The position numbers were made by a program, and so were the translations under genes. Below the pieces are notes generated by a model. It saw only the letters and a list, made by a program, of their open reading frames with translations, was not told the DNA's origin and searched no databases. Shown in pieces: positions 9,010-9,308 of a stretch of 64,000 nt of DNA (position 1 is the first letter of the stretch; every line of letters begins with the position of its first letter). This DNA comes from Anas platyrhynchos (taxonomy: Eukaryota; Chordata; Aves; Anseriformes; Anatidae): contig NC_092617.1 of assembly GCF_047663525.1 (NCBI RefSeq), forward strand, positions 1,864,501 to 1,928,500, given 5' to 3'.

Positions 9010-9308
9010 CAGGTTCCTGTAGCAGGATTCATCTGATAGCCTTTCAGGTTGATACAGATTTGACTACAGATACCAGGGTTTTGGCATTCATCACTATCTC
9101 CACAGTTTCCCAGCTGGACAGTCACATTCATTTATGTTGCATTCCTTCAGGGGCTTATCACTCCAGTCCTTGCAGTCTCTCTGCTGGTTACACACTTTAT
9201 TGATATCTTATGCATTCTCCACTTCTGCACTTGAATTTGTCAGGTCCAGAGCATTGAATAACATTGTTACAGTTTGCTTCATCAGTGCCATCCAGACAGT
9301 CTCTCACT
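9010..9308 (-). pseudogene. VLDLR: Intronless VLDLR-derived fragment inside a retroviral relic
   Basis: Minus-strand translation gives CLDGTDEANCNNVIQCSGPD, KFKCRSGECI, then (after a one-base shift) NKVCNQQRDCKDWSDKPLKEC and NINECDCPAG, then DECQNPGICSQICINLKG and YQM. These are the end of one LDL-receptor class A repeat, the whole next repeat and parts of two EGF modules, matching the very low density lipoprotein receptor as known. In the LDLR gene family these modules lie in separate exons, so their direct joining indicates an mRNA origin. Three internal losses between EGF parts, one frameshift and stops (for example just after the CPAG block) make it non-coding. Retroviral-like sequence lies on both sides. 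Confidence 0.82.

Follow-up and report, generated by a model that had tools for sequence, protein, structure and literature searches.

Clear captures of host genes by endogenous retroviruses (ERVs) are uncommon. Acute transforming retroviruses are usually defective and make viral-host fusion proteins, with oncogenes fused to pol or env, and an LDLR-family module is linked with avian retroviruses through Tva, the LDL-receptor class A (LDL-A) host receptor of avian sarcoma and leukosis virus subgroup A (ASLV-A). Among the closest described systems are also crocodilian ERVs that captured KIT-ligand and nectin3 mRNA (PMC4299795). Here we consider a 64,000-nucleotide stretch of the Anas platyrhynchos genome (NC_092617.1, positions 1,864,501 to 1,928,500 of the forward strand; 'the window' below), in which a piece of the host gene VLDLR lies on the minus strand inside retroviral pol sequence. 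We believe it very likely that a duck (Anatidae) ERV family transduced VLDLR and that the window holds an old copy of it, reduced by deletions. The stretches of the element, in the order in which the minus strand reads them, are as follows (P numbers denote the proteins compared).

9588..9806, minus strand: upstream element stretch (the 'leader', with a short hydrophobic open reading frame, ORF); tblastn with P0023 residues 1-73, 89% identity, also with P0014, P0020 and P0021
9313..9592, minus strand: retroviral pol, an internally shortened piece of the reverse transcriptase (RT) thumb/connection; tblastn with P0023, 93% and 75% identity
9037..9309, minus strand: VLDLR cDNA, very likely captured (end of LDL-A 7, LDL-A 8, EGF-A stump, EGF-B); PDB phmmer, Pfam, translation
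~8985..9040, minus strand: integrase C-terminal end; junction peptide and comparison with P0039
8686..8896, minus strand: downstream element sequence common to duck fusion gene models; tblastn with P0033, P0022 and P0015

The VLDLR piece contains stops and frameshifts, and we searched with the fragment read across three frames. Human VLDLR (8ufb) was the top PDB match by phmmer (E=4.9e-56), whereas LDLR scored lower among the PDB chains with the same query (E=2.9e-35), which bears out the VLDLR identity named in the original prediction. Pfam Ldl_recept_a was found for the joined reading of the piece, the unjoined frames being sub-threshold. The extent first given, 9308-9010, needs a correction at one end: VLDLR is present, with a true span of about 9309-9037, because ~9040-8985 is integrase. 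In translation, the exon joins near 9262/9261 and 9138/9137 are passed without introns, and NCNNVIQC and KECNINEC stand uninterrupted. As the VLDLR exon comparison we used 12 short ORFs from Logan contigs, returned by a protein search with the fragment. In P0001, LDL-A 7 is followed by 30 intron-like residues and then by LDL-A 8 (NCNN-(30 residues)-VIQC), and P0006 has 28 such residues at that place; the exon ORFs thus read through an intron of ~90 nt where the window fuses LDL-A 7 and 8. Intron-like sequence also stands upstream of VIQC and LDL-A 8 in P0002-P0005 and P0007-P0009. The C-terminal ends of P0001-P0009 are KECSK, KDCSK or KECRK, which fits an exon end followed by a GTAAG-like donor, with the codons deduced from translation. 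Since the exon ORFs hold intron-like sequence where the joins of the window are contiguous, the joins derive from a spliced transcript. The claim that the modules are fused without introns is thus upheld, with both joins read straight through and an intron in the exon ORFs at LDL-A 7/8; judged by its sequence, 9309-9037 is spliced, bird-like VLDLR.

Viral coding sequence adjoins this piece on both sides and on the same strand (RT at 9592-9313, integrase at ~9040-8985), and in the window DNA the minus-strand order leader, RT piece, VLDLR, integrase C-terminus is interrupted by gaps no larger than a few bases. The RT piece was matched by nine of the 75 proteins in the tblastn set, P0023 best. 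Another of the nine, the duck polyprotein P0024, which holds the RT piece, has RT, integrase zinc and Gag p24 C-terminal domains above the Pfam cut-off and RNase H slightly under it; its RT and RNase H align to 7sr6, and its RT, RNase H and integrase match solved polymerases and integrases. On the other side, the peptide that follows VLDLR in the window is NPATGT-x-KGPYG. This peptide recurs in the duck protein P0039, which has no VLDLR. There it forms the end of an integrase, alignable to 3jca (E=3.5e-10; in our reading the integrase of mouse mammary tumour virus), and a gp85-type Env follows. A match of the window to MLVIN_C was weak (E=0.027, below the cut-off; Pfam, six frames). VLDLR and integrase have an A-T-G tripeptide in common at the switch point, the VLDLR side being taken, by our assumption, from the human VLDLR sequence; so short a common stretch would be expected for copy-choice at short homology. 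Further downstream, 8896-8686 is the sequence that stands after Env in P0015, P0022 and P0033 (tblastn: P0033, 97% over 32 aa; P0022, 86% over 37 aa; P0015, 95% over 20 aa and 51% over 51 aa). The LTR (long terminal repeat) and leader proposed upstream are retained in part: the leader is element sequence (9806-9588, 89% to P0023) followed by the RT piece, but a 5' LTR was not found. A six-frame Pfam search of 7700-10700 with X at stops gave, of interest, only the sub-threshold Ldl_recept_a and integrase, and Rfam and tRNA scans were empty.

The same arrangement recurs in ducks. A search with the frame of the relic, X at stops, gave a family set of 26 proteins, mostly predicted gene models, and the counts of junctions and deletions among them are pattern matches at the protein level only. 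VLDLR modules are present in 23 of the 26; P0024 (pol), P0034 and P0038 (ZNF365-like) have no LDL-A or EGF modules. The named hosts are Anas zonorhyncha, A. acuta, A. platyrhynchos, Aythya fuligula, Mergus octosetaceus and Cairina moschata; a taxonomy look-up places Mergus in Anatidae, to which we take Anas, Aythya and Cairina to belong as well. The pol-VLDLR 5' junction was found in 11/26, P0034 included, and the VLDLR-integrase 3' junction, with the peptide YQxxPATGT, in 15/26, so that at the protein level the same junctions stand at several loci in more than one duck species. The contigs of the relatives have four distinct listed lengths in Anas acuta and three each in Aythya and Mergus, and several of them are of chromosome size. 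Several copies are on contigs of ~16 Mb (A. platyrhynchos, 16,023,107 bp; Mergus, 16,130,779 bp), a size that would presumably fit chromosome W. P0020, from Logan/ENA contigs, spans the RT piece and VLDLR as one protein. A deletion in EGF-A, bounded by two E-C codon pairs (NEC / YEC), recurs in 17/26, an intact EGF-A in none, and the Cairina protein P0037 deviates at this place. Internal losses between short repeats, as originally described, are therefore found for EGF-A; none of the aligned relatives that span the places concerned showed the loss of the EGF-A/B linker or the partial loss of EGF-B. The window copy lacks in addition the signal sequence, LDL-A 1-6, part of LDL-A 7 and the gp85/gp37 Env. 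Further deletions of LDL-A repeats are common to subfamilies across species, while several Mergus proteins retain all eight repeats; these cross-species deletions point to copying through RNA after the capture. P0019 (Mergus) carries a tandem repeat of the LDL-A 8 end and EGF-A stump inside its VLDLR part. P0017, P0018, P0034 and P0038 join a shortened ZNF365-like coding sequence to the RT piece, and P0017 and P0018 join it to VLDLR also; this ERV family may have captured a second host gene, or the gene models may be at fault. IMG/VR returned no relatives for the fragment, two window ORFs, P0014, P0027 or P0020.

Beyond VLDLR, the relatives add an envelope. PF03708 (gp85) is listed in 8/26, and a Pfam recheck was positive for P0013, P0014, P0018 and P0025; in the gp85-bearing relatives the VLDLR ectodomain reads on into Env. 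The gp37 part of P0025 matches the ASLV fusion transmembrane subunit (TM; 5h9c, 4jpr) at E=4e-16. Homology to a gp85/gp37 Env of avian alpharetrovirus type holds for the relatives and not for the window copy. A search with the C-terminal part of P0025 gave 47 proteins, of which 10, all from ducks, bear VLDLR by listed Pfam domains and sequence. The remaining matches are the duck proteins P0039 and P0040 without VLDLR, a protein of the screamer Chauna (Anhimidae; 60%), and proteins of other birds, unassigned sources and a turtle, ~35-60% identical to the P0025 query. Because nine longer env relatives (460-580 aa) start aligning only at P0025 residue 117-312, VLDLR and the linker occupy the place expected for the N-terminal part of the surface subunit (SU). 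P0014 combines a signal-like core at VLDLR with a membrane segment at its C-terminal end, and P0025 has a transmembrane segment. The SU/TM cleavage motif is kept in none of the eight fusions that reach it.

Three observations support the view that a retroviral genome took up host mRNA: viral coding sequence abuts VLDLR on both sides, the junctions recur in duck proteins, and neither poly(A) nor target duplication was found around the piece. The central point of the original prediction is thereby supported. We propose the following scenario. VLDLR mRNA would have been co-packaged with viral RNA, and RT would have changed template twice, first leaving pol for the 5' region of VLDLR and then returning, at a few matching bases, to the integrase region, so that VLDLR took the place of RNase H and most of integrase. 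The outcome would be a replication-defective element, with RT and integrase supplied by helpers. In relatives the product would be the secreted, ligand-binding and EGF part of VLDLR (signal sequence, up to eight LDL-A repeats), followed by an integrase-derived linker, the surface subunit of an avian-type Env (its C-terminal half) and the TM anchor. The copies would then have spread while shedding LDL-A repeats, probably by template slippage. The capture was most likely owed to abundant VLDLR mRNA in oocytes, where germline ERVs replicate; thereafter VLDLR most likely became largely cargo, perhaps with some early selection for its fold. In duck, VLDLR is on chromosome Z and its b form is found mainly in reproductive organs, and chicken VLDLR is the vitellogenesis receptor of the oocyte (PMC3162882); for duck VLDLR the paper names GenBank JF950611 and JF950612.

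Several points count against this account. The window copy lacks demonstrated paired LTRs or a primer site. Its LDL-A 8 has Ser, as in the exon ORFs, where 20/26 relatives have Gly, and this difference leaves its place in the family resting on the common junctions and the deletion. P0039, again without VLDLR, runs from integrase into mid-Env likewise without the SU N-terminal part, so that this loss need not stem from VLDLR; it may be older than the capture, or the gene models may have produced it. As the relatives are mostly gene models, predicted splicing could have created some of the Env joins, and the packaging, the mobilisation in trans and the oocyte source are steps that we infer. As to branching order, a quick tree sets the window copy outside all other copies with a modest SH-like approximate likelihood ratio (SH-aLRT) of 85. 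The tree has 22 rows, leaves 11/19 inner branches open, fills only 25% of the columns for the window row and 21% for the host row, omits P0019, P0021 and P0023, and was made after trimming the unrelated tails of P0020, P0026, P0028, P0035 and P0036.

An intronless, decayed host cDNA would also fit an ordinary VLDLR processed pseudogene that landed by chance in an old provirus. This we consider extremely unlikely: 9420-8900 holds no run of at least seven A or T, the two edges have no 6-mer in common (about 0.8 expected by chance), the 3' part of the mRNA is missing, the last module in the copy being EGF-B, a long way from the 3' end of the transcript, and identical pol junctions recur in many duck proteins. 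The original prediction had named a poly(A) tail and a target-site duplication as marks of such an insertion; as neither was found in 9420-8900 and the pol junctions are recurrent, a simple retrocopy was rejected. Automatic annotation supplied many of the relatives as gene models under the name VLDLR-like, and one may ask whether they are host genes, a duplicated VLDLR-like family broken by ERV insertions and made chimeric by gene prediction. Against this, the window DNA itself is intronless and contiguous from RT through VLDLR to integrase, P0020 is one protein from contigs, and identical junctions recur across species, so we regard it as very unlikely.

A different question is whether the transduced ectodomain was functional in the element, Env-fused or secreted, binding lipoproteins or viral ligands and aiding spread, for instance by the yolk route into oocytes or by blocking rival viruses that use LDLR-family receptors. 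We hold this to be unlikely, although not negligibly so. VLDLR is the oocyte yolk receptor, the VLDLR-Env frame is open in relatives, and the signal-like core of P0014 and the membrane segments of P0014 and P0025 speak for it as well. Cysteines were changed in 3 of the 63 changes shared by two or more copies versus 18 of the 105 private ones (Fisher p=0.028), a post-hoc, exploratory split of gene-model data chosen after the overall null, and acidic positions show, in raw counts, 23 distinct changes against 35 expected neutrally. The cysteine split hints at constraint during the spread of the family and at none later on. However, all changes together give no signal (21/168 at cysteines versus 25 expected neutrally, p=0.45; 383 usable columns), the counts are confounded by orthologous loci, by rows that are related to one another and by a small number of alignment artefacts, and the cleavage motif is lost from every fusion that could show it. 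Quite unlikely, in our estimate, is the specific form in which a chimeric surface protein of yolk-receptor ectodomain and Env anchor kept its fold and either aided germ-line entry by binding lipoproteins or yolk precursors or shielded cells from rivals. Receptor use by alphaviruses may be named beside such a role.

Downstream of the captured segment, and elsewhere in the window, lie further stretches:

8218..8442, minus strand: ORF formerly called Env-like TM, without support
7788..8179, minus strand: truncated LTR-like repeat of uncertain relation to the VLDLR element; inverted matches to 5906-6411
7578..7727, minus strand: weak match to the C-terminal part of avian env TM; tblastn with P0068
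5906..6411, plus strand: inverted partner of the LTR-like repeat, 75-81% identical

The Env-like TM flank of the original prediction is not sustained, as the integrase C-terminus adjoins VLDLR instead; the 8442-8218 ORF had no Pfam domain above the cut-off, no PDB match at E<=5 and no tblastn match at E<=1 from the 75 proteins, env relatives included. With the same proteins, tblastn found no env stretch between 8985 and 7730. At 7727-7578, P0068 matched with 30% identity over 54 aa (E=4.9e-4) and P0065 at E=0.48, and neither Pfam nor PDB gave support; lying beyond the LTR-like repeat, this TM match may belong to another element. We presume an LTR from the look of 7788-8179, and the repeat comparison of the window found no matching 5' LTR for it. 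A minus-strand ORF that overlaps 5906-6411 matches duck P0034 at 99% identity (80 aa). Other features of the window include a plus-strand ORF at 13911-14540 in which Gag p24 (PF00607, E=5e-22) is followed at once by RT sequence (PF00078, E=4e-6, slightly under the cut-off), another ERV relic with a gag-pol deletion; an array of ~5 kb at 23187-28233 (11-bp unit, some 460 copies, 71% match); and an inverted repeat of ~557 bp (15363-15915 versus 22575-23131, 94% identical), which belongs to a repeat family of similar copies, others lying near 1023-1361 and 40093-40450.

The junctions of the VLDLR capture can be defined, it is present in several copies, its donor gene is known and the oocyte is a plausible tissue of origin. 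It opens a route to dating a transduction event and to its logic. With the VLDLR-Env copies it can be asked if a receptor ectodomain ever served a purpose on a retroviral envelope, and duck genes annotated VLDLR-like are likely ERV products. Neither a captured lipoprotein-receptor ectodomain joined to Env nor a VLDLR-carrying ERV was found among the matches listed from the open-licence PMC literature, and the main text of a 2024 duck ERV survey (PMC11067759) uses none of the words VLDLR, lipoprotein and capture. Tva is a host receptor, unlike the element-borne VLDLR, and a link between them remains speculation. With the acute transforming retroviruses (v-src, v-sis; PMC13297096) our element has host-gene transduction in common; they, however, are exogenous and carry growth genes, whereas VLDLR is a lipoprotein and yolk receptor without demonstrated growth role. 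Two crocodilian ERVs (PMC4299795) may be compared as well. CrocERV29, with KIT-ligand, also holds a spliced host mRNA, although in the VLDLR element it is pol that is replaced. CrocERV31 is likewise a multicopy ERV lineage with the captured mRNA of a host cell-surface receptor, nectin3; the lineage was present before a species split, and some of its copies have an internal deletion in the gene that was captured. There, however, nectin3 replaces env, whereas VLDLR stands between RT and integrase remains and reads into Env in relatives. The duck element is thus the same kind of event as the crocodilian captures, and differs from them in the gene taken, in its site within pol and in the receptor-to-Env frame of its relatives.
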